Assembly: GCF_001647715.1 (NCBI RefSeq)
Contig: NZ_CP015600.1
Location: forward strand, 1,426,001 to 1,490,000
DNA: 64,000 bases
DNA from: Pseudomonas antarctica
GTDB taxonomy: Bacteria; Pseudomonadota; Gammaproteobacteria; Pseudomonadales; Pseudomonadaceae
Direction of reading: 5' to 3'
A program made the position numbers and the translations under genes. Every line of letters starts with the position of its first letter. The first letter of the stretch is position 1. The notes beneath the pieces were generated by a model that was not told the DNA's origin, searched no databases, and saw nothing but the letters and a program-made list of their open reading frames with translations. This document shows, in pieces, positions 2,594 to 64,000 of this stretch.

Positions 2594-2981
2594 GTGCTCG
2601 CAGGTCCCGCAAGCCCGATCCTTGGTCGCTGGAAATCAGCGGCAATCATGCGGCGGGATCTTACGTTAGCCCAGAGCGATATCCCGTTGTAGGCAACCGT
2701 CGCCCGCATGGAGCGGACCCCGACCTGTATGCGCAAGAGCCCCACGACATCCACCTGAACCGACCTCTGTGTGAGAAAGGGTTGTAGGTCTTTGTTACCG
2801 AAGAATTTTTTAAGTGAATGCTCTAAAAAAATCCCACACGTGACGAGATTGTTTCTACGCTTAGGGTAAGTCTGATTTCTGGCCCAGGGAGTCAGCCGGC
2901 TTGTCCCCGAAGGTATCGCGCCTCAAGGGAGTTGGGAGATGGGCACCCGAAGTATTTGACTGAAATCAGGAGTAACGGTCC
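2594..2981. other. Intergenic region, no gene recognised
   Basis: 388 bases without a credible gene. The right part is AT-richer around 2800-2880 and then becomes a purine-rich leader up to the ribosome site AGGAG of the small gene at 2982. This leader could be a long 5' UTR, but I see no known RNA family or clear promoter pair in it. Confidence 0.5.
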
Positions 2982-3167
2982 ATGACCAAATCCTATGGCG
3001 TAGCGAGTGCGGTGGCGTCTTTTCTGAGTCGCCGGATAGCCTTGCGGGGTCGAAGGTTGAGTTCGGATGAAAGGGAGCTGCTGGCGCAATATCGGGCGTT
3101 GACCGAAAGCGATCAAATGGCGATGCGGTATTTGATCGGGGCAATGAAGAGCGTGTCGCGGTTCTGA
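2982..3167 (+). CDS. Small conserved-type hypothetical protein (61 aa)
   Basis: Short basic protein with one arginine-rich segment (SRRIALRGRRLSSDE) followed by two amphipathic helices (ERELLAQYRAL, DQMAMRYLIGAM). It has no signal peptide or membrane segment. A good ribosome site (AGGAG, 9 bases before ATG) and a hairpin just after the stop support it as real. Function not recognised. Confidence 0.65.
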   Translation: MTKSYGVASAVASFLSRRIALRGRRLSSDERELLAQYRALTESDQMAMRYLIGAMKSVSRF

Positions 3168-3181
3168 ACCGCAGGAGGGAA

Positions 3182-3207
3182 GCGTTCCCACGCGTGCGTG
3201 GGAACGC
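3182..3207. terminator. Bidirectional hairpin between convergent genes, REP-like
   Basis: Perfect 11-bp stem GCGTTCCCACG/CGTGGGAACGC with a 4-nt loop, lying between the stops of the 61-aa gene and opgD. The same GTTCCCACG core recurs near 17470, so this is probably a dispersed palindrome that also acts as a terminator. There is no long T-run. Confidence 0.6.
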
Positions 3208-3213
3208 GTTGTA

Positions 3214-4839
3214 TCAGGTGTACTTGCGCTTGTCTGGCGCAGGCGGGAAGTACTGATACAGCCAGGTTTCACTCAACGTGCGGTCCTGCGTGCGGATAAA
3301 CAGGCGTAATTCCACTGGCTCCACGCTGTCGCTGGTCGGGTACCAGTCGAACAGAATGCGATAGCCCTTGATGTTGTCGAGCACCAGCACGCTGAAATCT
3401 TTCACTTCGCCGTGGGAACAGGTCACCACCGGCTCAATCCCGGTGCCGGCGGGCAGTCGGTCCAGGCCGCCACCTTTGAAGTCCACAGCAAACCGGCGTG
3501 CCCATACTTCGGGGTAGTGCTCGCCCGGTGCCCAGCCCTCGGTAAAGCCGCCCATGCCTGAGCGGGTGGCGTCAACTTGCGCCAGCGGGGTGCTTACCGG
3601 CGGCAGTGCGCTCCAGTACAGCTTGTAGCCATAGTTGAGCGAGTCGCCGGCGGCCACGGGTTTTTTCGGGGTCCAGAAGGCCACGATGTTATCCAGGGTT
3701 TCGCCGGTGGTGGGGATTTCCAGCAGGTCGATCGAGCCTTCGCCCCAGGCGGTGGTCGGTTCTACCCACAGGCTTGGGCGCTTGCTGTACCAATCCACGG
3801 TGTCCTGGTAGCTGGCGAACTCATGGTCGGTCTGCACCAGGCCGAAGCCTTTCGGGTCGGTGTCGGCGAACGCGTTGAATTGCAACTTTTCCGGGTTGTT
3901 CAACGGGCGGCAGATCCATTCGCCGTTGCCGCGCCACATCGCCAGCCGATCCGAATCGTGGATTTGCGGGTGGAGGGTGTCGCACATACGGCGCTCGTGG
4001 GTGCCGCAGCTGAACATGCTGGTCATCGGCGCGATGCCCAACTGTTCAATCGTGGTGCGCGCATTGATATTTGCGTCGATGGCCATCACCACCTGGTTGG
4101 CCTGGCAGTCGATGTCGAAGCGGTAGGCGCCGGTGGCGCTCGGCGAGTCGAGCAGGGCGTAGACCACAAAACGCGTGGCGTCCTTGGCCGGGGTTTCGAA
4201 CCAGAATTGCGTGAAGTCGGGGAATTCTTCGCGTTTTTTCGCGTAGGTATCAATTGCCAGGCCGCGTGCCGAAAGGCCGTACTGGCCGGTGGAATCCACC
4301 GCGCGGAAGTAGCTGGCGCCGAGGAAAGACAACACGTCATGGCGATCCAGTTCCGGCGCCTTGAACAGCTTGAAACCGGAGAAACCCAGGTCGCCAGTCA
4401 GCTGCTGGGTGTCGACCGTGGTCTTTGCATAGTTGAACAGCGACGGGCGGAAATGCACCTCGCGCGCTTCGCGGGTCTTGGGGTCGACGCTGTGCATGCG
4501 CACCGGCGTCTTGAAGCCCATGCCGACGTGGAAGAATTGCACGTCGAGCTGGCCGTTCAGTTCCTTCCACAGCGAGTGGTTGCCGTCATAGCCGATGGCA
4601 TTGAAATTCTGCGGGGTCATGGTCGCCAGCGTCGGCGGCAGCACCTGTTTGGTGTCTTTATACGCGGTGCCGGCGAGCTGCTTGGCCTGGGCTTTAAGCG
4701 TTTCAAAATCAAACGCCACGGCCTTGCCATCGGCGGCACGGTTCCCGGCCCAGGCCTGCGCGGCCAGCAGGCCAGAGGCCGACAAACCGGTATAAGCCGC
4801 AATGGCCATGGATGCTTTGAGCAAATTCCTGCGGTGCAT
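3214..4839 (-). CDS. opgD: Glucans biosynthesis protein D (OpgD/MdoD)
   Basis: Periplasmic protein of osmoregulated periplasmic glucan synthesis, thought to shape the glucan backbone. 541 aa, full length for the OpgG/OpgD family. The N-terminus is a twin-arginine signal (HRRNLLKAS, then a hydrophobic stretch ending AQAWA), as expected for OpgD and unlike Sec-exported OpgG. Inside are family segments such as YDGNHSLW and [12 protein letters not shown]. It stands alone, convergent with the 61-aa gene and divergent from the DUF533 gene. The glucan synthase-like ndvB lies at 46-48.6 kb of the same window, but there is no operon link. Confidence 0.92.
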
Positions 4840-52916: not shown

Positions 52917-54020
52917 TTATGCCACGTCGATCCACTCAGCGCCTCGACTGTCGCGGTACAGATCCGTCATTGTGGCCGAACGGTGACCGAGCAGTTTCTG
53001 TGCATCACGGCCTTCGAGTTCGTGAAGTCGTGCGGCGAGGGATCGCTGCTCGTGAAAGGACGGTGGCTGGCGGCCAAAAGTTATCCCCAGCTTCAGGCCC
53101 GCTTTGTCGCGAGCTTCGGCAAAGGCAGAGCTCAGCGTGTCCAGCACCAGCGGCTGGCCAGCCTTTGCTCGGCCCGATGCTTGCGCATGGTGCACCAGGT
53201 GTTGTGACAGAACGCGGTCGCGGCATTGTTTAATTACGGTAGACAGATCAAGCCCGACCGACTCAAGGCGAAGCTCGGTGCTGATGCGCAGCCTGGCGCC
53301 GGTCTTGGACTGAACGACATGCAGGAAGCCATCGTGCACGTCCTTGAACAGCATCGAGGCTATATCGTCCCGGCGCTGGCCAGTCAGCACCGCCAGTTCC
53401 ATTGCCCTGCGAAGCCACGGCTTCCTGGCTTCCTCGTAGATCGCCTTCCACAGTTCAAGCGTCAGCCGCTCGCGCTTGATGTTCACCCGCGCCGCCTTGG
53501 TCACCTCGACCGGGTTGGCGTCTGCCCACCCCCGCGCCTGCGCCTCAGCGAACACGTCTCGCAACAGCGAACGCATTGCCCTGGCCATCTGCGCCTTTCC
53601 CTCTTTGGCCATGACCGTCAGGTAATCGGCCACATCCATCGTCGTGATGTCCTTAATCCCCTTAGAACCGAATACTGCCGTCAGGCGGTTTAACCGCATA
53701 CCCACGTTTTTATTGCTGCTGGCGGACAACTTCCGCTCGGCGAACAGCTCGCGGTATTCGTCCAGCCATTCCGAGAACAATTTGCCTGGCGCTGGCGCCG
53801 GGGTACTGATGCGCTCAGCGAGCGTTGGCTTGATGGCATCTGCGTGGTTGGCGCTGACGGCCTCGCGAATGGCCGCCTCCTTATCCTTGCCCAGGCCGAA
53901 CACGCGACCACTGATTGGGTCGCGGTAAGTGTAATAAGTGACGCCGTTGCGGGCGTCGGTCTTGCGGTAGAGATTGGGCGGAAGATCCTTTGACCCGGTG
54001 TTACGCGGCCTGGGCGCCAT
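52917..54020 (-). CDS. int: Tyrosine recombinase integrase
   Basis: 367 aa phage integrase. N-terminal arm-binding-like region, core-binding SAM-like domain (FAERKLSASSNKNVGMRLNRL), catalytic domain with Arg in LTGQRRDDIA, HExR in SFHEQRSLAARL, LLGHRSATMTDLY with the terminal catalytic Tyr. Drives integration/excision together with the 20-base-overlapping excisionase gene upstream. The stop lies next to the chromosomal junction, the usual int-att arrangement. Confidence 0.93.
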   Translation of the reverse strand: MAPRPRNTGSKDLPPNLYRKTDARNGVTYYTYRDPISGRVFGLGKDKEAAIREAVSANHADAIKPTLAERISTPAPAPGKLFSEWLDEYRELFAERKLSASSNKNVGMRLNRLTAVFGSKGIKDITTMDVADYLTVMAKEGKAQMARAMRSLLRDVFAEAQARGWADANPVEVTKAARVNIKRERLTLELWKAIYEEARKPWLRRAMELAVLTGQRRDDIASMLFKDVHDGFLHVVQSKTGARLRISTELRLESVGLDLSTVIKQCRDRVLSQHLVHHAQASGRAKAGQPLVLDTLSSAFAEARDKAGLKLGITFGRQPPSFHEQRSLAARLHELEGRDAQKLLGHRSATMTDLYRDSRGAEWIDVA

Positions 54021-54530: not shown

Positions 54531-54631
54531 ACGAATACCTCGCCCGCCGCTCACCGGCAGGCATGTAGTGAGTGTTTGAAAGGTTGATCGATACCGCTAA
54601 GATCGCGGAAAGTTCAATAACATTGATATGG

Positions 54632-54666
54632 GTCACTTCTCCGCTTGAAAAGAGAGTAAAAGTGAC
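54632..54666. promoter_or_regulatory. Inverted repeat upstream of plus-strand cassette gene
   Basis: GTCACTT (54632-54638) and AAGTGAC (54660-54666) are perfect inverted arms, with an inner TCTC/GAGA pair. It sits 26 bases before the ATG of the 106-aa gene; candidate operator or RNA hairpin. Confidence 0.4.
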
Positions 54667-54691
54667 GAACTCTCAAATGCGGATCGACATC

Positions 54692-55012
54692 ATGTTTTCA
54701 AAGCAACGAAGGCGGGTGTTTTGGGATTGGTCAGATAGCGAGCTTCACACCCGATGTCACGATGGCTTGCTACCAGATGGGGGGCAGATCGACGTTCAAG
54801 TGCGCACCTCTCGAGAGGGAGCTGTTCAATTGTTTGTGGGCGCTTATAGCGGAAGTGGGGGGATGCTTTTTGAGGAGTACTACAAAGCGCGCCCAGGGGA
54901 GACCATGACCGTAGCCCTTGCTTTCGGTGTGGCGCGAGCAATGATGCTTACAGCGACGAAACTGTCTCCCCTCCCTTCCACTGCTCGCCTTGGCATCTAC
55001 CGCAACGTTTGA
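54692..55012 (+). CDS. Moron-like small protein, paralogue A
   Basis: 106 aa, plus strand, against the direction of the surrounding operon. Related to the protein at 56228: shared pattern VFWDWSDSELHTR / VFWGWADPAIHTR, then (L/F)VG-YSGSGGMLFE / FIGVYGANGMMLLE, then PGETMTVALAFG / PGETMTNALARG. No signal peptide or membrane helix. ATG 54692 was chosen to match the paralogue; ATG 54677 is possible. Independent orientation and its own leader suggest lysogen expression. Function unknown. Confidence 0.65.
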   Translation: MFSKQRRRVFWDWSDSELHTRCHDGLLPDGGQIDVQVRTSREGAVQLFVGAYSGSGGMLFEEYYKARPGETMTVALAFGVARAMMLTATKLSPLPSTARLGIYRNV

Positions 55013-55787: not shown

Positions 55788-56098
55788 AGCTGCACCTCGC
55801 GGGTCGCCCATTGCACATACGGGCCGTCATCCGTGTCGAAAATTCCGAGCAGAAACCAGTTGTATGCTTGTGGCGTTTCTGGCTCCCAGCCGAGGCAATG
55901 AGCCTCGCCATCTTCCCAGTAGGGGTGTGAGTCCAAGTCAGAATCCATGTGCCATCCGACCGCCGTTAATCCCTGGACGGCCAGCCACGCCTTCCATGCT
56001 TCGGCGTCCTCATCAAAATCCGGAATGTCGGGGTGATACCAGTAACCGTGCTCATCGCGCACGACTTCGGCGGGTTCAATCAACTTTTCTTCAGGCAT
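55784..56098 (-). CDS. Phage hypothetical protein (104 aa)
   Basis: Acidic, Trp-rich soluble protein (EHGYWYHPDIPDFDEDAEAWKAWL; AYNWFLLGIFDTDDGPYVQW). Coupled to the ASCH-like gene by ATGA. No domain recognised. Confidence 0.68.
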   Translation of the reverse strand: MPEEKLIEPAEVVRDEHGYWYHPDIPDFDEDAEAWKAWLAVQGLTAVGWHMDSDLDSHPYWEDGEAHCLGWEPETPQAYNWFLLGIFDTDDGPYVQWATREVQL

Positions 56099-56120
56099 GA
56101 CTTCGTCCTTGCCGCTATAG

Positions 56121-56144
56121 CGGCTGACTTTGAAGGGGGAGGGG
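56121..56144 (+). repeat. Direct repeat, left copy flanking cassette B
   Basis: 24-bp copy beginning CGGCTGACTTTGAAGGGG. It matches 56566-56589 at 23 of 24 positions, with a 445-base period. The two bracket the plus-strand gene at 56228. Confidence 0.85.
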
Positions 56145-56171
56145 TAGGAATAAATATTTGTTGCTTTGTGT

Positions 56172-56200
56172 TTCGTTCACATTCGTACAAGTCCCATAAT
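56172..56200 (+). promoter_or_regulatory. Possible promoter of cassette B
   Basis: -10 CATAAT (56195-56200) with TTCGTT 17 bases upstream, inside an AT-rich island just after the left direct repeat. The -35 is weak. It lies 28 bases before the ATG. Confidence 0.4.
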
Positions 56201-56227
56201 TGCCGCATTAATTTCAGAGCGGCTCAC

Positions 56228-56572
56228 ATGAAGAACAGAGGCAAGGTTTTCTGGGGCTGGGCTGACCCCGCAATTCACACTCGATCCGTGGATGAGCGAC
56301 AGACCGATGGCACCCTGCTAAACGTCCAAGTCCGCATGTCGCTTCTTGGAAGAACGGAGTTATTCATTGGCGTTTACGGAGCTAATGGAATGATGCTTCT
56401 TGAGGACGCGCCTGATTCATTGCCCGGAGAAACCATGACAAACGCTCTCGCCAGGGGCCTCGATAGGGCCAGGTTAAAGGCTCCGATAGGCACCCGATCA
56501 ATTACGAGCAGAAAATCAGAGAGTTTGCCAAGGGCAGGTTCAAGGCAGTCACGAAAGAGCGATGACGGCTGA
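56228..56572 (+). CDS. Moron-like small protein, paralogue B
   Basis: 114 aa, plus strand between minus-strand operon genes. Paralogue of the protein at 54692 over about 75 residues (see there), with a longer basic, serine-rich tail (RSITSRKSESLPRAGSRQS). ATG 56228 follows GAGCGG; the upstream in-frame codons overlap the divergent 104-aa gene. The whole cassette is bracketed by 24-bp direct repeats, so it looks like a separately gained unit. Function unknown. Confidence 0.62.
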   Translation: MKNRGKVFWGWADPAIHTRSVDERQTDGTLLNVQVRMSLLGRTELFIGVYGANGMMLLEDAPDSLPGETMTNALARGLDRARLKAPIGTRSITSRKSESLPRAGSRQSRKSDDG

Positions 56573-56589
56573 CTTTGAAGGGGCAGGGG
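56566..56589 (+). repeat. Direct repeat, right copy flanking cassette B
   Basis: Second copy of the 24-bp repeat (one mismatch: GGGGC versus GGGGG). It overlaps the last codons of the 114-aa gene, so the gene end lies within the repeat. Confidence 0.85.
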
Positions 56590-56623
56590 CTACATGTTTT
56601 GCGGGTGGAGTACGGATGTTCTC

Positions 56624-57262
56624 CTACCGGGTTTTGGCACTGCGCTTGCGAAACTCGTAAACCATGCTGCGCAGATCTACCAGTGACTCTTGCAGGTCAC
56701 CGCGAGCTGAGTCGATATTCTCGAGCAACTCGCCCTCACCGTCGTCGCCGCCTTCATCGACGGCCAGAAGGGCCAGGCCGTATGCCTGGAACTTCCCCAA
56801 CACGTCATCGGCTGACTTGGCCATGTACTCGGCGTGCTCGATGGCGTAGTCCTTGTTGGATCGCTCAGTGGATGTAGGCGCTGCATCGCAAAGCTCAAGC
56901 ACCCAATCAATCCATTCCTTGCGCTGCCTGTACTGCGGTTGGTCGTCGTCAATCGCTTTGACCATATAGTGCGGGCTGCGGTTGATTGACCGTACCGCAC
57001 TGACCAACTCGTCCCAGCGCTCATCCGCTGCGGTCAGGCGCTGTTGCATATCCTGCCCGTTGCGCAATTCCGCCTCGCGCTGCTGCTCCAGGCTTTCGAC
57101 CTGTTCGTCGCGCTGGTTGAGCAGCAGTTGCAGGCCGTCACGCTCGGCTGTGACCCGGTCGAAGTCGGTCGACTCCACGTACCGCCCACCGTCGGCCGGC
57201 ACCATGTCCGCGCATATTTCGTCAGTGTCCCTGTCCAGGTCGTAGCGCATAACTTCGGTCAT
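56624..57262 (-). CDS. Phage hypothetical protein with coiled coil (212 aa)
   Basis: Central coiled coil from residue about 33 (VTAERDGLQLLLNQRDEQVESLEQQREAEL) followed by a helical region containing SINRSPHYMVKAID. Acidic overall. Coupled by ATGA to the gene at 57259. Related proteins are frequent in Pseudomonas prophage early operons; function unknown. Confidence 0.7.
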   Translation of the reverse strand: MTEVMRYDLDRDTDEICADMVPADGGRYVESTDFDRVTAERDGLQLLLNQRDEQVESLEQQREAELRNGQDMQQRLTAADERWDELVSAVRSINRSPHYMVKAIDDDQPQYRQRKEWIDWVLELCDAAPTSTERSNKDYAIEHAEYMAKSADDVLGKFQAYGLALLAVDEGGDDGEGELLENIDSARGDLQESLVDLRSMVYEFRKRSAKTR

Positions 57263-57930
57263 ACAGCCTCCATCGATACCAGATCATGGGCATTCACAAC
57301 CGGCTGCTGTTCTTGACGAAGCGCTGCTTGGACGGCCTCGACAACCCGCCGCAGGTACGTGAATTTGTGGTTCTCTTCGACGGCCTTTCCGTCTAGCGGG
57401 TAGTGCCACTCATCGCCGAACAACTCGGTCAGCAGCGCGCTTTGATGCCAGCATTCACTCGGACTCTCGATGCTGCGCAGAACGTCGATGTCCTGCCAGA
57501 GCTCGCGGGCTTCCTCTTTGCTCAGCTCGCCCAACTCCCAATCGTGGCGGCCGGTCTGTTGCCGCCGGCGCTGGACGATGCACTTCTTGGCGAGGGCGTG
57601 AAGCGCGTCACCACTGAACACCGTGGAACTGATGCCGCGATCCAAGCAATTCAGGACGTAGTCCCAGCCGCAGTCGGCGACAAACTCCGCGACGGTGCGC
57701 GGGCCCATACCGCCCCAGTAAGCGTTCCAGCTGTTGTCCCAGCAGTTGATGGTGATCTTGCCCTGAGCGGTCTGGTAGTTCGGGTTCGCCTCAATCGGGC
57801 AGTCGCGCCGGCCGAAGTCCTCGAGGAACACGGTGATCGGGTCTAGGCGTGGCGCACCGGTGATCACCAGCTTCGTGACTGTGGAGCGCTCAACCTGCAG
57901 CGGCGCGGTGATTTGGTTTTCTGTAGGCAT
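57259..57930 (-). CDS. Phage hypothetical protein (223 aa)
   Basis: Residues 12-120 resemble a common phage early protein: PRLDPITVFLEDFGRRDCPIEAN, then GKITINCWDNSWNAYWGGMG. The rest is helical. ATG 57930 has AAGGA upstream. Lies 44 bases downstream of the DGR reverse transcriptase stop and continues the same transcription direction. Function unknown. Confidence 0.72.
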   Translation of the reverse strand: MPTENQITAPLQVERSTVTKLVITGAPRLDPITVFLEDFGRRDCPIEANPNYQTAQGKITINCWDNSWNAYWGGMGPRTVAEFVADCGWDYVLNCLDRGISSTVFSGDALHALAKKCIVQRRRQQTGRHDWELGELSKEEARELWQDIDVLRSIESPSECWHQSALLTELFGDEWHYPLDGKAVEENHKFTYLRRVVEAVQAALRQEQQPVVNAHDLVSMEAV

Positions 57931-57974
57931 GGGGAGTCCTTGCCGGGCCACGCCCGGGCGGTGCAGTGGGGGAG

Positions 57975-59135
57975 TTACTTCTTCTGGAAGGTTTTGGTCA
58001 TCGCCGCGTTGACGATGTTGCCGCGCTTCAGCACGACGCGAGCAAGTGCTGCTCGGTCGCTATGACTGTGGCTTGCCTGGCTGAGTAGCCCGAAATAGCT
58101 GTTGGCTGTCTGGCGCAGATCCTCGGCTGGCGCCGCGGCGGTGCGCTTCAGTGCCTGGGCCAGGGATCGCTTGCGGGTGGTGCGTCGCCATGGCTTGATG
58201 ACGTGGCCAACGAAGTCCACGCCACGATCCACGGGTTGCAGGATCGTCTTTGTGGGGTTCAGCTTGGCGCCGAGCCTTGGCAGGAACGCTTCGACCTCTG
58301 CCAGCCACTGGTTTAGCTGCTGCGGCGATTCATGCAGGAACACGAAGTCATCGACGTAGCGGATGTAGTGCTTGGCGCCCAGCGTGTGCTTGGCGAACTG
58401 GTCCAGGGCGTCGAGGTAGACGTTGGCGAAGAACTGCGATGACAGGTTGCCGATCGGCAGGCCGAGGCGCGCGGGCTGCGCTACCAGACGCTTGTGCTGT
58501 GGTACCCGGTTGAACAGGTGCGCCGGGCTGCGCGTCTCGTAATCCTCACGCGGGTCATGCATCAGGATCTGCGTGGCCAGGGCCAGCCACCATCGTTCGG
58601 TGATCCTCGCTTCTAGTTGCTTGCGAAGCACCGCCTTGTCGATGGCGACAAAGAAATTGGCCAAATCCAACTTTAGATACCAGCAGGGCTTCGACCAGTT
58701 CTCGCTGGCGCTCCGGATCTTCGATTCAAGACGCTTGGCCGCGTACAGCGTGCCGCGCCCTGGAATGCATGCGCAACTGTCCGCTATGAAGCAGGCGTAG
58801 AAGCGCGGTGCCACATGGTTGTACATGAGGTGGTGGACGACGCGGTCCCGAAAGGCTGCCGCCCATACTTCCCGGGCTTTCGGTCGGGTGACCACGAAAC
58901 AAATAGACCGGCCTGGCCGGTATGTGCCGGCTACCAGGTCGTCGTGTAGTTGGATCAGGTTCCGCTCCAGGTCGATCTCGAAAGCCAGCGCACTGTCGCT
59001 GTTGCGCTTGGTGCGTCGGCAGTCGTAATAGGCCTGGACCAGATCCTGAAACGGGTAGGGGCCAAAAGTCGAATCTGCGGACGGGGCGGACACGGAGCTC
59101 GTTGTTCTTGTCGTTGTTGTTCTGATTGCCATCAT
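57975..59135 (-). CDS. Diversity-generating retroelement reverse transcriptase
   Basis: 386 aa from the first ATG. RT palm with first catalytic Asp in YLKLDLANFF (153-162), DGR-diagnostic motif IGNLSSQ (228-234; group II introns have QGxxxSP here), catalytic YVDD (260-263) and a short thumb; no nuclease or maturase domain. It copies the TR RNA with adenine-directed errors into variable repeats. The start is uncertain: ATG 59135 and GTG 59093 both lie inside the TR, so residues 1-22 are TR read in another frame, and no clear ribosome site is visible. Last gene of the cassette. Confidence 0.93.
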   Translation of the reverse strand: MMAIRTTTTRTTSSVSAPSADSTFGPYPFQDLVQAYYDCRRTKRNSDSALAFEIDLERNLIQLHDDLVAGTYRPGRSICFVVTRPKAREVWAAAFRDRVVHHLMYNHVAPRFYACFIADSCACIPGRGTLYAAKRLESKIRSASENWSKPCWYLKLDLANFFVAIDKAVLRKQLEARITERWWLALATQILMHDPREDYETRSPAHLFNRVPQHKRLVAQPARLGLPIGNLSSQFFANVYLDALDQFAKHTLGAKHYIRYVDDFVFLHESPQQLNQWLAEVEAFLPRLGAKLNPTKTILQPVDRGVDFVGHVIKPWRRTTRKRSLAQALKRTAAAPAEDLRQTANSYFGLLSQASHSHSDRAALARVVLKRGNIVNAAMTKTFQKK

Positions 59136-59176
59136 CGAAGTTCATGTTGAATGCGTTGTTGGCTGAGCGCTGCGAC
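59071..59176 (-). repeat. DGR template repeat (TR)
   Basis: 106 bases matching VR2 (60473-60578) and, over 101 bases, VR1 (59780-59880), without gaps. Read in the variable-protein frame it gives Asn codons (AAC/AAT) at nearly all variable positions. In the 62-base variable core there are 29 template adenines. A GC-rich invariant end of about 23 bases (coding for LRVRPVR) is the probable initiation-of-mutagenic-homing region. The 171-base spacer to avd contains a TGACCT/AGGTCA hairpin (59287-59301). TR is not followed by a GC hairpin, unlike the VRs. Confidence 0.93.
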
Positions 59177-59347
59177 CTATCGTGCTATCTACGTCGCCGA
59201 GCCGAAGGCATAGCCGATCAGCAAGGAAACTGCGCAGGACCTACGCGGACGCTTTAGACCGGCGGTATCCCTTGTGCGCATGGCGGTGACCTATCAGGTC
59301 AGCGGCACGACCAGATTCAATTCGCACAGACCAGAAAGCCGTAACCT

Positions 59348-59704
59348 TCAGGTAGCGGGCGCGGTTGGGGTAGAGCGTTTCCAGGCATTGGCCTGCTTGC
59401 CGACGGAGGCTGTTACCTCTATCGCCTTAGCATGCTGTTCGACACTGATGAATCGGCTGTCCTTGAATAGGCGCATCAGGAACTCGACCACTTGAACCCT
59501 CTCGACCAACAAGGTCAGGTGTGGTCGTTTGTCCTGGGTTGCGTTTGCACGGGCGATCAGCATCACAACCTCGATGCATTCGTCGATCACTCGCTTACCC
59601 AGCGATTGTTTGAGGTCTCGCGGGATATTTCTAGTCAGGATGGTCGCCATGTGCAAAAGACCCATGGCCGCCCGGTAGATCGACAGATCGGTGTGCATTC
59701 CCAT
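59348..59704 (-). CDS. avd: DGR accessory variability determinant (Avd-like four-helix protein)
   Basis: 118 aa, all helical and basic: LSIYRAAMGLLHMATILTRN, LKQSLGKRVIDECIEVVMLIARAN, LTLLVERVQVVEFLMRLFKDS, SVEQHAKAIEVTASVGKQANAWK. This is the four-helix bundle family of Bordetella phage bAvd, which binds RT and template RNA as a pentamer. Position between the variable protein and TR matches the Bordetella order. ATG 59704 was chosen (GGAG 10 bases upstream); ATG 59698 is an alternative. Confidence 0.87.
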   Translation of the reverse strand: MGMHTDLSIYRAAMGLLHMATILTRNIPRDLKQSLGKRVIDECIEVVMLIARANATQDKRPHLTLLVERVQVVEFLMRLFKDSRFISVEQHAKAIEVTASVGKQANAWKRSTPTAPAT

Positions 59705-59731
59705 TGCGGTACAGCTCCATAAGCAAAGCAA

Positions 59732-59749
59732 CCGGCCGCACGCGGCCGG
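59732..59749 (-). terminator. GC hairpin just downstream of VR1
   Basis: CCGGCCG/CGGCCGG 7-bp stem with a 4-nt loop (8 bp if the loop is 2), 14 bases past the VP1 stop and 30 bases past VR1. DGR targets typically carry such a hairpin/cruciform after the VR, where it aids retrohoming; it may also act as a terminator. Confidence 0.65.
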
Positions 59750-59763
59750 ATTAAATAAGCGAA

Positions 59764-60384
59764 TTAATCGATAAATTCACTGCGGACGGGGCGGACACGG
59801 AGCACGAGGCCCTTGTAGTAGTTGGTCTGAAGGCCATCATCGAAGTACATGTAGAATGCGCTGTCGGCTGAGCGCTGCGAACTCGACCAGTACCAGGTGT
59901 CGCGGAAGGCTTCGGCGCCACTTTCTTGGAAGGCGGTGTGCACGGTTTGCAGCGGGCCTTCCGCACTGTACAGCTGACCCACCGGCTCGCTATGTGGGTT
60001 GTCACCGTTGCGCGAGTTTTCCCAGTTCTCTTCGGTGGTCGGCTTGAAGTGGCGGTACTGCAGCTCCTGCACATCGCGAGCCGGGATCGCCCAGTCGGTG
60101 AAGCCTTCGATGTTCAGGGCTAGCACCTTCGCTGCCAGATCACTGCCTGCTGCTGCCATGGCTTGGGTGTTGGCCAGGCTGTCGGTGAAGCTATCGGCGC
60201 CTTCGATCTTCTCGCCGTACTCGCCCCACTTGCCGAGCAACTCATGCGCTGCGCCGGCGGTGATGTGCAAGGAGCGCTTGCCAGTTACCGGGTCGTGGGT
60301 GATGCCGGTGACGAAACCGCCGCCGTAGGACTGGCCGATTGCCGGAGTGGTTACTGCTGGTGCTGCTTTCTCAACTGCGGACAT
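59764..60384 (-). CDS. DGR variable protein 1 (DUF1566-like)
   Basis: 206 aa. The C-terminal half fits DUF1566, a C-type-lectin-like fold: DWAIPARDVQELQYRHF, TWYWSSSQRSADSAF, closing with LRVRPVRSEFID. The last 40 residues are the variable repeat VR1. N-terminus: TPAIGQSYGGGFVTGITHDPVTGKR, no signal peptide or membrane helix. GAGGAA lies 6 bases before ATG 60384. Second target gene of the DGR, immediately upstream of avd. The ligand is unknown; by analogy the variable face binds diverse partners. Confidence 0.9.
   Translation of the reverse strand: MSAVEKAAPAVTTPAIGQSYGGGFVTGITHDPVTGKRSLHITAGAAHELLGKWGEYGEKIEGADSFTDSLANTQAMAAAGSDLAAKVLALNIEGFTDWAIPARDVQELQYRHFKPTTEENWENSRNGDNPHSEPVGQLYSAEGPLQTVHTAFQESGAEAFRDTWYWSSSQRSADSAFYMYFDDGLQTNYYKGLVLRVRPVRSEFID
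59780..59880 (-). repeat. Variable repeat VR1
   Basis: 101 bases aligned gaplessly to TR. 14 substitutions, 13 at template A and one at G (GAC to TAC). They change 11 codons, all altering the residue (for example Asn to Asp, Ser, Tyr, Tyr, Leu, Thr, Gly, Leu). Confidence 0.93.
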
Positions 60385-60407
60385 GGTGCTTCCTCTTTTC
60401 GAAGGCA

Positions 60408-60428
60408 ACAAAAAAGGCGCTGTGCGCC
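60408..60428 (-). terminator. Hairpin with T-run downstream of VR2
   Basis: On the minus strand GGCGC-ACA-GCGCC followed by six Ts, between the VP2 stop and the VP1 start, 45 bases past VR2. Could be an intrinsic terminator that limits VP1 read-through, the DGR homing hairpin, or both. Confidence 0.65.
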
Positions 60429-60463
60429 CTGGTGTGCCGGATCAAGAACGAATGGATGAAGGA

Positions 60464-61075
60464 TTAAATAAAGAATCTGCGGACGGGGCGGACACGGAGC
60501 TCGTGGAACTTGCCGTAGTAGTACTGATCGCCATCAGCGAAGAACATGAAGAATGCGTAGTTGGCTGAGCGCTGCGACGATGACCAGTAATAGCAGTCCT
60601 GGGCGAACACCTTGGGACAGTTCAGCCAGCCCTGGTACAGTTCGGCAGCGGCGGGCAGGTAGAAGTCGCGGTGACCATCGGCCTGGTGTTCGGCGCAGGC
60701 ATCCGCCGCCGGGTACTTTCGCTCGTCATCGTTGCCGATCAGCACCTGGGTGTTGGTGTAGCCGTCAGTCTTGCTCAGTCCTTTGACCTCAACGCCACGA
60801 CCGCCCCACTTGTGATCGCCAACGTCCTTGGCCGCGATGATCAGGTAGTGCGCCGGCACTTCACCGCGGGCGTGAACGAAACCGCCGTTGAGTCCGCCCT
60901 GGCCCGGCCACGGTTGGCCGATCTCCGGGATAGTGGAAGGCGCTACCGGTTGAACGTTCGCCGCCGGCGGAAGCACCTGGGCGAAAAAGCTGGCAATCGC
61001 CAGTTTTGCCAGAGCACTTGATGGCATCTTGATAGACACGTCGCCGTGTTTCAGGGTGATCATTTCGGTTTTCAT
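60464..61075 (-). CDS. DGR variable protein 2 (DUF1566-like)
   Basis: 203 aa. N-terminus MITLKHGDVSIKMPSSALAK with a mildly hydrophobic stretch (LAIASFFAQVLPPAANV, about 26-42). DUF1566-like C-terminal domain: HRDFYLPAAAELYQGW, DCYYWSSSQRSANYAF, ending LRVRPVRRFFI, which is VR2. GAGGTAAC lies 7 bases before ATG 61075. Outside the VR it is only distantly similar to VP1 (shared IGQ...GGF and the WSSSQRSA lead-in), so the two targets are diverged paralogues rather than a recent duplication. Confidence 0.9.
   Translation of the reverse strand: MKTEMITLKHGDVSIKMPSSALAKLAIASFFAQVLPPAANVQPVAPSTIPEIGQPWPGQGGLNGGFVHARGEVPAHYLIIAAKDVGDHKWGGRGVEVKGLSKTDGYTNTQVLIGNDDERKYPAADACAEHQADGHRDFYLPAAAELYQGWLNCPKVFAQDCYYWSSSQRSANYAFFMFFADGDQYYYGKFHELRVRPVRRFFI
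60473..60578 (-). repeat. Variable repeat VR2
   Basis: 106 bases aligned gaplessly to TR. 14 substitutions, every one at a template A. 11 codons changed, all altering the residue (mostly Asn to Tyr, Phe or His, and Asp to Ala or Gly). Aromatic residues dominate. Confidence 0.94.
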
Positions 61076-61132
61076 GCGGTTACCTCAGTCAGGCGCCGCC
61101 CTCCGGTGGCCGGATGCAGCGAGTAGGGTGTG

Positions 61133-61456
61133 TTATGCGGGTTCGATGATCTCGTCGCCCGGGTCTTTCTGGATGGCGAGAAGGCTTTTATTGCGGAATT
61201 CCCGCGCCACGTTTTCGGATATCTCGAATTCGTGGCGCGGCGGTTCGAGTAGCGCTTTGGACTTTGAGCCAAGGTCATGAAGACGATGAATCATCAGCGT
61301 CATCGCCTCGCCCTGCTCAGTAATGCCTGACCACTCCATCAGATCGGCCAGCGCCTGGCGGGTGCCTGGTCGAACCCTGAGCCGCAATTCCTCTTCGGCA
61401 TTCACCACGCGCTTCCTGGCAGTTTTTGCCGAGCGCTCCTGCACAGTCTTTGCCAT
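61133..61456 (-). CDS. Ribbon-helix-helix-like small protein heading the DGR operon
   Basis: 107 aa. Basic start (KTVQERSAKTARKRVV), then strand EELRLRVRP and two helices (GTRQALADLMEWSG and GEAMTLMIHRLHDLG), an RHH-like pattern. It lies 57 bases upstream of VP2 in the same direction, so it could autoregulate the cassette. GAGGTAGG precedes the ATG. DNA-binding role is inference. Confidence 0.68.
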   Translation of the reverse strand: MAKTVQERSAKTARKRVVNAEEELRLRVRPGTRQALADLMEWSGITEQGEAMTLMIHRLHDLGSKSKALLEPPRHEFEISENVAREFRNKSLLAIQKDPGDEIIEPA

Positions 61457-61620
61457 GGCCTACCTCTTCAATTCCGGTATATACGCCCATGCGTTAGCGC
61501 CCTGATTGCATGGTGTTTGCTTTTGGGGGCTGGGGGAGGGCGTGAAAAAGCCTGATGCCTCTGGGCCAGGCTGTCTGGCAGTAATGGTAATGTCTACGCA
61601 GCACCCCTGGAGCCTGCTAG

Positions 61621-62253
61621 ATGAATCGTCAAAGTCCATCTCACCGCGTCGCAACGCCTCAAGTCGCGTCAAGCACTGAAAGCCCAGCCGCCCACCCCCC
61701 TATTTGGCATCGCGACCCGGACTTACTGACCGTTGGCAGCACGGGTGCGGCCATTTTGGGTTTCAGCTTTCTGGTGCTTTGGTTGTTGCCGGGCTTAGTG
61801 CTGACGATTTTGCTCCTTCTCGGGTTCGAAGCGATACCAGGTGAACCGAGCAGCGATGGGTCTAGCCTCACAACGTCGTCGCTCATCCAGTTCCTGTGTG
61901 GTTCTGTTGTGCTCATGGGGCTGGTCTTCGCGTGGATTTCCTCTGCTGCTAGAGTGCTGGCCTTCACGTTCGACGAAAACCAGCAACTGCTTACCCTCAC
62001 GGTCACCCGTCGCGGTCGTAAGCCCACCGAGGTGCAGGTGCCATTTAGCGACATTATTTGTATCAGCCCTTACGTGTTAGCCAGTTATGACCGTCATGGC
62101 TATTTTAGCGTCGTGTGTCAGGGGCCGAGGGACAAAGAGCTTGAATATCGATTGGCTGAGGGTACTTCTCTGGAGGAAATGGAGTTTCACACTGCTTGGT
62201 TGCGGGAAATAATTGGCTTACGGATGCACCATGTACTGAATCTGGACAAATGA
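61621..62253 (+). CDS. Membrane protein, moron-like (210 aa)
   Basis: Plus strand, opposite to its neighbours. Two membrane helices at about 42-68 and 88-107, then a soluble PH-like or beta-rich domain (LAFTFDENQQLLTLTVTRRGRKPTEVQVPFSDI). GGAG lies 8 bases before ATG 61621. Divergent from the RHH-like gene. Membrane moron proteins can block superinfection, but nothing here proves that. Confidence 0.72.
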   Translation: MNRQSPSHRVATPQVASSTESPAAHPPIWHRDPDLLTVGSTGAAILGFSFLVLWLLPGLVLTILLLLGFEAIPGEPSSDGSSLTTSSLIQFLCGSVVLMGLVFAWISSAARVLAFTFDENQQLLTLTVTRRGRKPTEVQVPFSDIICISPYVLASYDRHGYFSVVCQGPRDKELEYRLAEGTSLEEMEFHTAWLREIIGLRMHHVLNLDK

Positions 62254-62277
62254 ACTGCTACATCGCTTTGATATGGG

Positions 62278-62748
62278 CTATGCGGCGCATGAATCGACCT
62301 TCACCTGGCGCCAAGCGCCGACAGCTTCGAAGATCCGCGCGGCGTGCGCCTCGTCCAGGGACATCGCTTCGGGAATGGCGATCCAGCCCGAAGCCACCAT
62401 CTGGCTTTGATTGGCCTCGTCGCGCAGCTTCTTGTAGCAATGCTCGATCACGTCTTCCAGGTGGTCGGAGAGGTAGACGCCATCGGGCGCCACCTCCACC
62501 GACTTGCTGTAGCGGTCGCCGCGGGCGTCGATGCAGAGGGCGCTGAGGTAGATCGTCCACCGGTGGGGAATGCCGCAGACGGCCTGGCCGATCTTCCCCG
62601 GTGCGATGTTCTTGAGCGACTTGCAATTGATCATGCCCTGGCGGCCGCTGGGGTCGATGTTCACCACCGCGACGTGGTTGGAGGCCAGCAGCGACCGGCA
62701 GGACCGGTCAATGCGGGCTTTGAGGTTGTGCGGCTTGCGCTTGCTCAT
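62278..62748 (-). CDS. Phage hypothetical protein (156 aa)
   Basis: Begins SKRKPHNLKARIDRSCRSLLASNHVAVVNIDPSGRQG. The central part has WTIYLSALCIDARGDRYSKSVEVAPDGVYLSDHLEDVI. A type often seen in Pseudomonas prophages without a known role. Its ATG overlaps the stop of the preceding (62745) reading frame. Confidence 0.72.
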   Translation of the reverse strand: MSKRKPHNLKARIDRSCRSLLASNHVAVVNIDPSGRQGMINCKSLKNIAPGKIGQAVCGIPHRWTIYLSALCIDARGDRYSKSVEVAPDGVYLSDHLEDVIEHCYKKLRDEANQSQMVASGWIAIPEAMSLDEAHAARIFEAVGAWRQVKVDSCAA

Positions 62749-62994
62749 AATGCCTCCGCGAGTTTGCGCAGCGCTTCACGCTCGGCCCGAGTAATGGGCG
62801 GCTTGCGGCGCTTGAGGATGGTTTCGGGATCGATCTTGGTGGAGCGGGGCGGTGGCAGCGGTTTGCGTGGCGGGCTTGGCAACTGCGCGACTGTCCCGCC
62901 TGCGGCCAAGAACTCCGCAGTGCGCTCCGATATCGATTAAGCGTCCTGGCGGTGTTGCTCTACCAGGCTTAGGTGGTTGCTGATCATGATTCAC
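62745..62994 (-). pseudogene. Phage small gene, apparently frameshifted or with non-standard start
   Basis: The frame 62936-62745 encodes 63 residues that look genuine (SERTAEFLAAGGTVAQLP, later PPITRAEREALRKLAEAL) and ends on an ATGA overlap with the next gene. It has no usable ATG or GTG and is preceded by TAA. A different frame supplies GTG 62994 (VNHDQQPPKPGRATPPGRL), and a 16-residue ORF starts at ATG 62987 with GAGGGTGA upstream. One shift near 62936 would fuse start and body. Frameshift mutation, sequencing error, or re-initiation from the short ORF are all possible. Confidence 0.55.
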
Positions 62995-62996
62995 CC

Positions 62997-63668
62997 TCAG
63001 CGCATTAGCGCCTTCCGAACGAATGGGTCAAGGTCTGACTGATTCAGGAGCCAGCGCCGGTAGTCGCTGGGCAGGTCAGCAAAGGCGGTGCCTTTGTGCT
63101 TGCCGAAGCCGATGACTGTGGGGATGCGCGCATCCTCAGAAATATTCCAAAGCTCTTCCCAGTCGCTAACCGGACGCCCAAGCTCGGCAGCGAGTTGGTC
63201 GAGAATTTTCACCAGCAGCAGCCGACAATTCTTCACGTCATCCAGCGCTGCGTGGGCGTTGCGGAGCAGGCCCGTCGCTTCGGCGCGGTAGTGCAGGTAG
63301 ATCATTGCGGACTGGGTGTGGCTGTCGGCGTCTGGCCAGAGCTTTGAGCTCAGTGCCCGTGTGCAGATGCGCTTGACGTCCGGTTCCCCGATGACGTGCC
63401 AGTCGTAGTCCACGTTGTGCCCGATCAGGTATTCAACATCGTTCGGCAAGTTGAAGTCGGTATGCGGATGGAAGCCAGCAAGCTCTTCGTCAAGGATGTG
63501 GCTGGTTGCCAGAGCACTCAACTCGATCGGCTTGCCAGGCTTGTAGCGCTGGAGGAAGTCAGCTGTAACCGCGAGGCTGCTGATGCTCTCCAGCTGGAGC
63601 CATGCCGCCTCAATTAGGTGCGGATCGTTGAGACCAGTTGTTTCGCTGTCGAAGATGTATGCGGTCAT
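62997..63668 (-). CDS. DnaQ-like 3'-5' exonuclease (ExoX type)
   Basis: 223 aa. DEDDh exonuclease: YIFDSETTGLND (Exo I, Asp7 and Glu9), LIGHNVDYDWHVI (Exo II), AHAALDDVKNCRLL (Exo III with His and Asp). The C-terminal ~50 residues (IGFGKHKGTAFADLPSDYRRWLLNQ) match the quaternary-like extension found in phage ExoX proteins. Probably acts in phage DNA recombination/repair. Overlaps the upstream gene by 4 bases. Confidence 0.87.
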   Translation of the reverse strand: MTAYIFDSETTGLNDPHLIEAAWLQLESISSLAVTADFLQRYKPGKPIELSALATSHILDEELAGFHPHTDFNLPNDVEYLIGHNVDYDWHVIGEPDVKRICTRALSSKLWPDADSHTQSAMIYLHYRAEATGLLRNAHAALDDVKNCRLLLVKILDQLAAELGRPVSDWEELWNISEDARIPTVIGFGKHKGTAFADLPSDYRRWLLNQSDLDPFVRKALMR

Positions 63669-64000
63669 GCTGTTTGCCCTTGGGGGTTGAGTTCTAATTT
63701 GCGCTTATCTTTGGCGGCGACCACCTGAGAAACCAGGTGATCAAAGCCGATGGCGATCGCCTTGGCCGCATTGAATGCCGATTGAAGCGCGACCATGTCA
63801 GATGCGCCGGCGATGTCTGCTATCGCATCAACGAGCAGTTCCTTGGCGCGCGCTTCCGGGCTTACACCGGAATTGAGCCAGGCAAGAAGTTTGCTCCCAG
63901 TGCTCTCGTCGATAAGTTCAGGCTGCTCGAACAGCTTTGTCCGATCCTTGCTGGCCAAGGCGGTGTGCGCGTCGTGAGTCAGATCAAGGACAACTGTGAA
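63665..64000 (-). CDS. Phage protein, C-terminal part (start outside window)
   Basis: The frame is open to the window edge. A TTG at 63958 gives 97 aa, but in-frame codons continue upstream (THDAHTALASKDRTKLFEQ) without a stop, so the gene very likely starts beyond base 64000. The visible part is helical (LLVDAIADIAGASDMVALQSAFNAAKAIAIG). It sits directly before the exonuclease with an ATGA overlap, a place often taken by a recombination protein; identity not established. Confidence 0.65.
   Translation of the reverse strand, partial: FTVVLDLTHDAHTALASKDRTKLFEQPELIDESTGSKLLAWLNSGVSPEARAKELLVDAIADIAGASDMVALQSAFNAAKAIAIGFDHLVSQVVAAKDKRKLELNPQGQTA

Follow-up and report, generated by a model that had tools for sequence, protein, structure and literature searches.

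A stretch of 64,000 nucleotides of the Pseudomonas antarctica contig NZ_CP015600.1 (positions 1,426,001 to 1,490,000; hereafter the window, in whose coordinates features are given) carries the parts of a diversity-generating retroelement (DGR) at 57975-61075, on the minus strand of a lambda-like prophage and in the order VP2, VP1, avd, TR, RT. A repeat search of 56000-64000 returns a single long family, a 131-nt direct repeat in three copies, namely the template repeat (TR) and two variable repeats (VR1 and VR2). The TR core (59071-59176; 106 nt, 33 adenines), VR1 (59776-59881) and VR2 (60473-60578) are in register, and the VRs end within the last five codons of the genes for target 1 (VP1; 59764-60381, 205 aa) and target 2 (VP2; 60464-61075, 203 aa), both of the Lcl_C/DUF1566 type; an earlier note on this DNA had likewise seen one TR and two targets ending in VRs. 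TR includes a 22-nt A-free 3' segment (59077-59098) that is IMH*-like, with counterparts at 59782-59803 in VR1 and 60479-60500 in VR2, all read from the sequences; the term IMH comes from the literature on phage BPP-1. The accessory variability determinant gene, avd (59348-59704), encodes 118 aa. The reverse transcriptase (RT) gene (57975-59135) encodes 386 aa from an ATG ATG start inside TR, and both methionines are conserved in the rows aligned at that place. The earlier note was right about the gene order on one strand, whereas TR does not lie between avd and RT as it had stated: TR overlaps RT codons 1-22, that is, the first 65 nt of the open reading frame (ORF). A match to the RNA family RT-15 (RF03018; 59173-59364, E 1e-44) fills the gap between avd and TR together with the first 4 nt of TR. 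All of these features are on the minus strand, as is a 5-bp hairpin with a T run downstream of VR2 (60416-60428), terminator-like and a possible target element; downstream of VR1, a hairpin with a 7-bp stem and a 4-nt loop (59732-59749) is a candidate target element of the cruciform type.

As far as its sequence can tell, the cassette is very probably a complete phage-borne DGR, as the earlier note had proposed, and one that has been used recently and is ordinary in kind. The reading draws on the set of parts, on the restriction of change to adenines, on change in both VRs since two resident cassettes parted, and on an unchanged TR. What we infer rather than observe are the extent of the template RNA, the priming site, retrohoming, and the early expression and role of the targets.

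The comparison of TR with the VRs covers the first 99 nt of TR, which hold 31 adenines and 68 other sites. VR1 is changed at 13 of the adenines and 2 of the other sites (hypergeometric p 2e-6), VR2 at 14 and 0, respectively (p 7e-9). The template holds 19 variable codons, the last of which is absent from VR1, for ~10^17.7 protein variants. A genome-wide search with the TR adenines masked, allowing up to 3 mismatches, returns six sites (two TRs and four VRs) in two places, three per cassette, and reveals no remote VRs beyond these two cassettes; a reversed control pattern returns none. VP1 and VP2 are distant paralogues (33% identity), as would be expected of ordinary paralogous repeats under diversifying selection with no DGR at all, an explanation to which we give practically no credence, contradicted as it is by the near-exclusive change at template adenines, by a copy, TR, that belongs to no target, and by the adjacent RT and Avd.

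The RT carries IGNLSSQ and YVDD, as first read, and so matches the motif pattern of the DGR clade ([I/L]Gxx[S/T/F]SQ with YxDD). The RT phylogeny, to which the earlier note had pointed as a check, agrees: the RT groups with those of BPP-1, VHML, ANMV-1 and Bacuni_F1 (support 86/87, below the tree tool's star level, in a tree of 11 rows with long branches) and apart from one other RT of its own genome and from two group-II-type phage RTs, controls that score over the maturase cut-off. Its best match by sequence in PDB is 8ub7 (E 2e-35; the next is at 5e-9). The Avd-like protein matches Pfam bAvd with 49.7 bits against a cut-off of 40 and the PHROG 'Avd protein of DGR' with E 6e-30; in PDB a sequence search returns weak matches only, the best, interleukin-10, at E 0.036. 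A different RT-like protein is encoded elsewhere in this genome (L003, C1:2499962-2500201), within a 565-aa open frame with YVDD in which a scan found no SQ or SP motif.

A second prophage in the same genome holds a near-identical cassette, with an RT 2.7 Mb away that is 100% identical after rounding. Aligned gap-free over window positions 56801-61139, the twin cassettes show 41 differences in 4,339 bp, 20 in VR1, 16 in VR2, 2 in RT, 3 at 61101-61137 and none in TR; a further 20 differences lie outside the cassette, at 56566-56800. Template adenines (66 TR-A sites) account for 34 of the 41 (Fisher p 1e-59). Because the differences sit in the VRs and none in TR, both targets have changed since the twin cassettes parted, with the template fixed. 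The earlier note had named TR and VRs evolving alike as the sign that would speak against a DGR, and the twins show adenine-restricted change in the VRs beside an unchanged TR. Since the two TRs of the genome are identical, either RT might act on all four VRs. A similar pair is formed by the viral loci L008 and L020, both assigned by their names to IMG genome 2639763197, which differ by 32 VR changes (13 + 19), all at adenines, and by 8 of 2,729 positions outside. Homogenisation of cassettes within one genome was considered as a rule and rejected: the twin pair and L008/L020 are near-identical, but the copies in Pseudomonas sp. WS 5079 (89%) and P. cyclaminis (84%) are not, in a comparison that left out the two copies of G225 and the two of G285.

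The differences between the twins could also have been imported by recombination with the diversified VRs of other phages, the machine itself being silent today. Stretches do move by recombination, because the twin prophages are mosaics: the cassette is 98.7% identical, whereas of ten other shared blocks >100 bp, seven are 85-93% and three 97.7-99.4% identical. Import, however, would take two separate tracts of ~100 bp ending at the VR edges, and the same again for L008/L020; both VRs differ, yet the 591 bp between the VRs and TR are identical and the RT has only 2 changes. Nor does silence sit well with an RT open in both copies, or with VP1, VP2, avd and RT all being open frames in the window. 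We therefore hold this account to be very unlikely beside a DGR that has itself recently rewritten both VRs.

Of 142 relatives of the cassette confirmed in viral contigs, the best 80 were surveyed, the VRs being collected by a DNA scan permitting up to 14 non-A mismatches in 106 nt. Two VRs were found in 71 loci, three in 4, one in 3 and none in 2, so that 75/80 have two or more; L023, L071 and L079 offer too little upstream DNA, while L051 has one VR and L053 none despite enough DNA. An avd gene is present in 80/80. Among the pooled 157 VRs, 2,150 of 4,606 adenine sites are changed, as against 61 of 10,780 others. Two targets are the rule in the lineage of this RT, and the earlier note had overstated the case in calling two targets beside one TR less usual: multi-VR DGRs make up roughly a seventh in one survey (PMC3521204) and 28.6% (271/948) in another (PMC6642488). 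In the L028-type clade the two slots are filled by other members of the target family; therefore, the layout with two slots persists while the targets in it change. Two VRs are present in Haboob, phPA-G and LPPA56, and three in Cruim01 and Magia. A third target gene upstream of the usual pair is seen in L090 (7860-8459), L040, L064, L074, L081 and L091 (5761-6141).

In the mechanism that we propose, a transcript would start at the end of avd, take in the RT-15 stretch and TR, and continue into the RT gene. RT and Avd would bind this transcript, and copying would put random bases opposite the TR adenines. The cDNA would then replace the 3' ends of VP1 and VP2 at the common A-free 3' anchor, which is followed by the hairpin, and the outcome would be two small lectin-fold proteins with randomised faces. 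A stem of at least 6 bp follows the proximal VR in 72/78 loci and the distal VR in 25/77, compared with 2/81 after TR and 9/159 in shuffled sequence; a stem of at least 5 bp follows the distal VR in 77/77, compared with 47/159 in shuffled sequence and 44/81 after TR. BPP-1 needs a hairpin on the VR side (PMC3240598), and by their sequence the hairpins here match it, clearly for VR1 and weakly for VR2.

Several observations weigh against a complete and recently used DGR. In addition to the two non-A changes of VR1 relative to TR, the twins' 36 VR differences include 2 away from adenines. L058 differs from L059/L061 at two positions outside the VRs and none within them, L017 and L018 differ at two non-A sites of VR1 only, and seven close pairs are wholly identical, among them the window and L005, which is not counted as independent; some of the identical pairs are probably the same phage twice. 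Avd falls under the NCBIfam cut-off (50.5 vs 80). VP1 and VP2 do match Lcl_C, the DUF1566 domain that had been claimed for them, but only below its gathering score (28.2 and 27.8 vs 34.9), and the structure model of VP2 is poor (pLDDT 61.8). The distal stem is just 5 bp in 52/77 loci. L053 has RT, avd, TR and one target-like gene with no VR passing the scan, and is possibly a DGR that has lost its targets. Lastly, retrohoming itself has been deduced and not observed.

The RT-15 match begins at the avd end, takes in the first 4 nt of TR and scores 178.7 bits against a gathering score of 82. In a genus sample of 298 genomes, RT-15 is over its cut-off in 22 (26 matches) and this RT, taken at E 1e-80 or better, is found in 23 (27 matches). 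All 26 over-threshold matches are on the strand of the RT and stop 37 or 40 nt short of an RT match; TR itself was located in the 80 viral loci and in the majority of 29 loci from named genomes, though not at every one of the 26. The single RT lacking RT-15 is matched from residue 73 only, and three RT-15 matches under the cut-off sit in genomes without this RT. In a phylum sample, RT-15 occurs in 3/398 genomes. Among 19 diverged sequences, 97.3% of pair cells are standard and 18/53 pairs show two-sided change, compared with a mean of 7.9 in shuffled and 2-5 in slid controls; the structure has an advantage here, having been derived from this alignment. We conclude that RT-15 probably forms the 5' portion of the template RNA. 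A regulatory RNA in its own right, belonging to the avd-RT operon but not to the template RNA, would accord with Rfam, which calls RF03018 just RT-15 RNA, of type sRNA; this is unlikely, in that RT-15 fills the whole avd-TR gap and, in the aligned loci, ends where TR begins, on the same strand in 26/26.

With RT-15 as the probable 5' part of the template RNA, the arrangement around TR departs from that of BPP-1, in which the structured part follows TR on its 3' side, ahead of brt (PMC12875486). The RT start is overlapped by TR in 80/80 viral loci, at one place once the start of the RT match is allowed for, and the cassette has no BPP-1-type spacer between TR and the RT gene; because TR contains the RT start codon, a spacer could lie only inside the RT gene. 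RT codons 98-121 vary less at synonymous sites (familywise p 0.005, best window) and, weakly, so do codons 59-75 (p ~0.06), which leaves room for, and is suggestive only of, a recruitment or priming element inside the RT ORF. RNAalifold on 26 sequences yields no convincing consensus helices downstream of TR. Full-text literature searches for RT-15 together with diversity-generating retroelement, or for RF03018, returned no match. RT-15 is said to go back to Weinberg 2017, a work that a DGR paper (PMC8143477) has in its reference list, and the link may therefore have been published already.

The setting of the cassette was read from ten chosen large ORFs. The DGR is flanked on the same strand by the prophage integrase (52917-54020, no DGR part) and a CI-like repressor (L084, 8232-9086); on the other strand follow terminase, portal, head, tape measure and a J-like tail fibre. 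Whereas the earlier note had extended the DGR over 57975-61456, it reaches to 61075, and 61133-61456 is a small gene of phrog_5439 (function unknown), which is no known DGR part. Cruim01, Magia and Haboob likewise have their DGR between repressor and integrase; in phPA-G it comes after the repressor, and the stretch read does not reach the integrase. By analogy with lambda, this position presumably is the early left operon, which suggests early expression of the targets. Near the integrase, two similar small ORFs lie on the plus strand (54572-55012 and 56033-56572; VFWDWSD.../VFWGWAD...), and in their region a 31-nt DNA repeat occurs at 56114 and 56559.

The targets most likely serve diversified binding to a partner in the host or in a rival phage. 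Both match the C-terminal end of PHROG 4245, a family of 583 positions with function unknown. VP1 has no solved relatives by sequence up to E 10, and a fold search of VP2 in viral models, with a model too poor to use, gives nothing at E 0.001 or better. That the targets are instead receptor-binding tail proteins of the virion, like Mtd of BPP-1, is a possibility we take seriously while doubting it. In DGR clades 1, 4 and 6, most viral targets carry a tail-protein annotation (PMC8144416), the Bacuni phages with two DGR targets differ in host range and most of their differences are in the VRs (PMC8143477), and the length of PHROG 4245 implies longer relatives with other domains. The lineage does not fit this survey pattern by position. 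The target genes lie neither in nor next to the tail module but ~44 kb from the J-like tail fibre gene in the prophage, on the other strand, a distance whose weight is limited, as the ends meet in the circular genome (tail ~12 kb past the integrase in Cruim01). The same non-tail placement is found in Cruim01, Magia and Haboob, the proteins, at only ~200 aa, match no tail family in searches of Pfam, PHROGs and NCBIfam, and RT-less relatives of the targets adjoin cI in D3 and come one gene later in PMG1.

Such VP1-like genes were found in 30 phage records, a count that includes duplicates. The carriers include D3 and PMG1, where the gene is near cI, and nine Wroclawvirus jumbo phages, which we take to be virulent. 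Searches of whole records return no RT match in the nine Wroclawvirus phages, D3, PMG1, U7, FBPa19 and two uncultivated viral genomes (UViGs; possible fragments), and nothing but RT remnants in D14O, Medea1, Aurca01 and two further UViGs. Target-type genes with VR-like ends and no RT, or in D14O (L189) just an RT remnant, are seen at L175-L183 (Wroclawvirus), L184-L187, L189, L190, L195 and L198, the RT search having excluded L185. Medea1 (L098) and Aurca01 (L099) keep two or three diversified targets, with avd, TR and RT gone save for a C-terminal RT remnant and without the strong stem seen after the proximal VR in Cruim01. In Deifobo and Paride (L176 and L178, ~2959-3450), annotated small ORFs run antisense to an open, unannotated target gene.

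The TR of Haboob, a P. aeruginosa phage, served as the reference for these orphan VRs over 80 nt (26 A sites and 54 non-A sites). Changes at non-A/A sites number 0/11 in D14O, 0/14 in FBPa19, 1/13 in PA5oct, 2/13 in U7, 3/12 in Callisto, 4/12 in 30-3 and 4/13 in Ettore, D3, phi_D3 and PMG1; the UViGs L191-L198 have no non-A changes by construction, as the search demanded it. In the jumbo-phage target gene the VR holds the most variable 60-nt block (31/60 columns). PA5oct and Ettore differ at 15 of 377 positions in the gene body; in the VR, 14 of 26 template-A and 5 of 54 other sites differ. Counting against the action of a DGR in trans, non-A changes rise to 7 in Cassandra, 11 in Deifobo and Paride, 12 in 30-2 and 13 in MIJ3, phages with a common VR allele show 0/26 A-site differences, and the FBPa19 target, matched over VP1 residues 144-204 only, is probably broken. 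The stem after the orphan VR is 3-5 bp in 13/16, PA5oct included, and 6-7 bp in Cassandra, Callisto and L198, a weak test in that RT-bearing Haboob and phPA-G also have just 4-5 bp there. Judging from these sequences, capture of already diversified genes, or RT loss, to which the remnants point, may explain much of the orphan VRs, and may do so as well as action in trans, which was not adopted as their best reading. We consider it improbable that the cassette represents a distinct DGR type in which the recruitment or priming structure is 5' of TR (RT-15) with any 3' spacer inside the RT gene, which would serve an early-expressed, non-virion pool of binding proteins common to Pseudomonas phages, and in which a resident DGR would rewrite the orphan VRs of other phages in trans, jumbo phages included.

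Compared with BPP-1 (mtd-avd-TR-brt; RT 32% identical), the cassette shares the order VP-avd-TR-RT on one strand, adenine mutagenesis, Avd, the A-free 3' anchor and a hairpin after the VR. The earlier note's likening of the gene order to that of BPP-1 holds; unlike in BPP-1, TR overlaps RT and the targets lie outside the tail module. In BPP-1 a single VR is annotated, TR (locus 2681-2814) is separated from brt (2959) by 144 nt, and the target bears a tail-protein annotation, in contrast to the two targets, the TR-RT overlap, the structured RNA 5' of TR and the target genes lying between repressor and integrase seen here. Burkholderia phage Magia and Pseudomonas phages Cruim01, Haboob, LPPA56 and phPA-G share an RT 65-89% identical, RT-15, avd and two or three VRs, while differing in their target sets; the Magia annotators already mark two lectin-fold genes as possible DGR targets. 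One TR with two C-lectin-type targets is also found in the gut phages nd4 and nd12 (tentaclins, PMC10743442) and Bacteroides phage Bacuni_F1 (PMC8143477), which are other phages of other hosts, with RTs ~27-35% identical. The DiGReF survey (PMC3521204) lists TR-RT ORF overlap (group 3), a TR overlapping an RT end being a printed architecture, along with multi-VR DGRs, Pseudomonas fluorescens WH6 being tabulated with two VRs; the parts of it consulted do not mention RT-15. Of the earlier description of the system as active and little described, recent use stands on the twin cassettes, whereas multi-VR DGRs, the two-target layout and TR-RT overlap are already known. Added here, and worth following, are a TR that holds the RT start without a BPP-1-like spacer, the link to RT-15, target genes placed between repressor and integrase, and RT-less phages that carry VR-like genes (the literature was not searched for the jumbo-phage genes).

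Two co-resident prophages with interchangeable cassettes amount to a natural experiment, in which DGR use can be shown without culture work. The RT-15 link would give a role to an RNA family of unstated function and offer a way into the workings of a DGR that lacks a BPP-1-like spacer. That the targets lie outside the tail module raises the question of whether these DGRs diversify something besides tail fibres, and the VR-like genes of RT-less phages that of whether the mutator of one phage may act on the genes of another.

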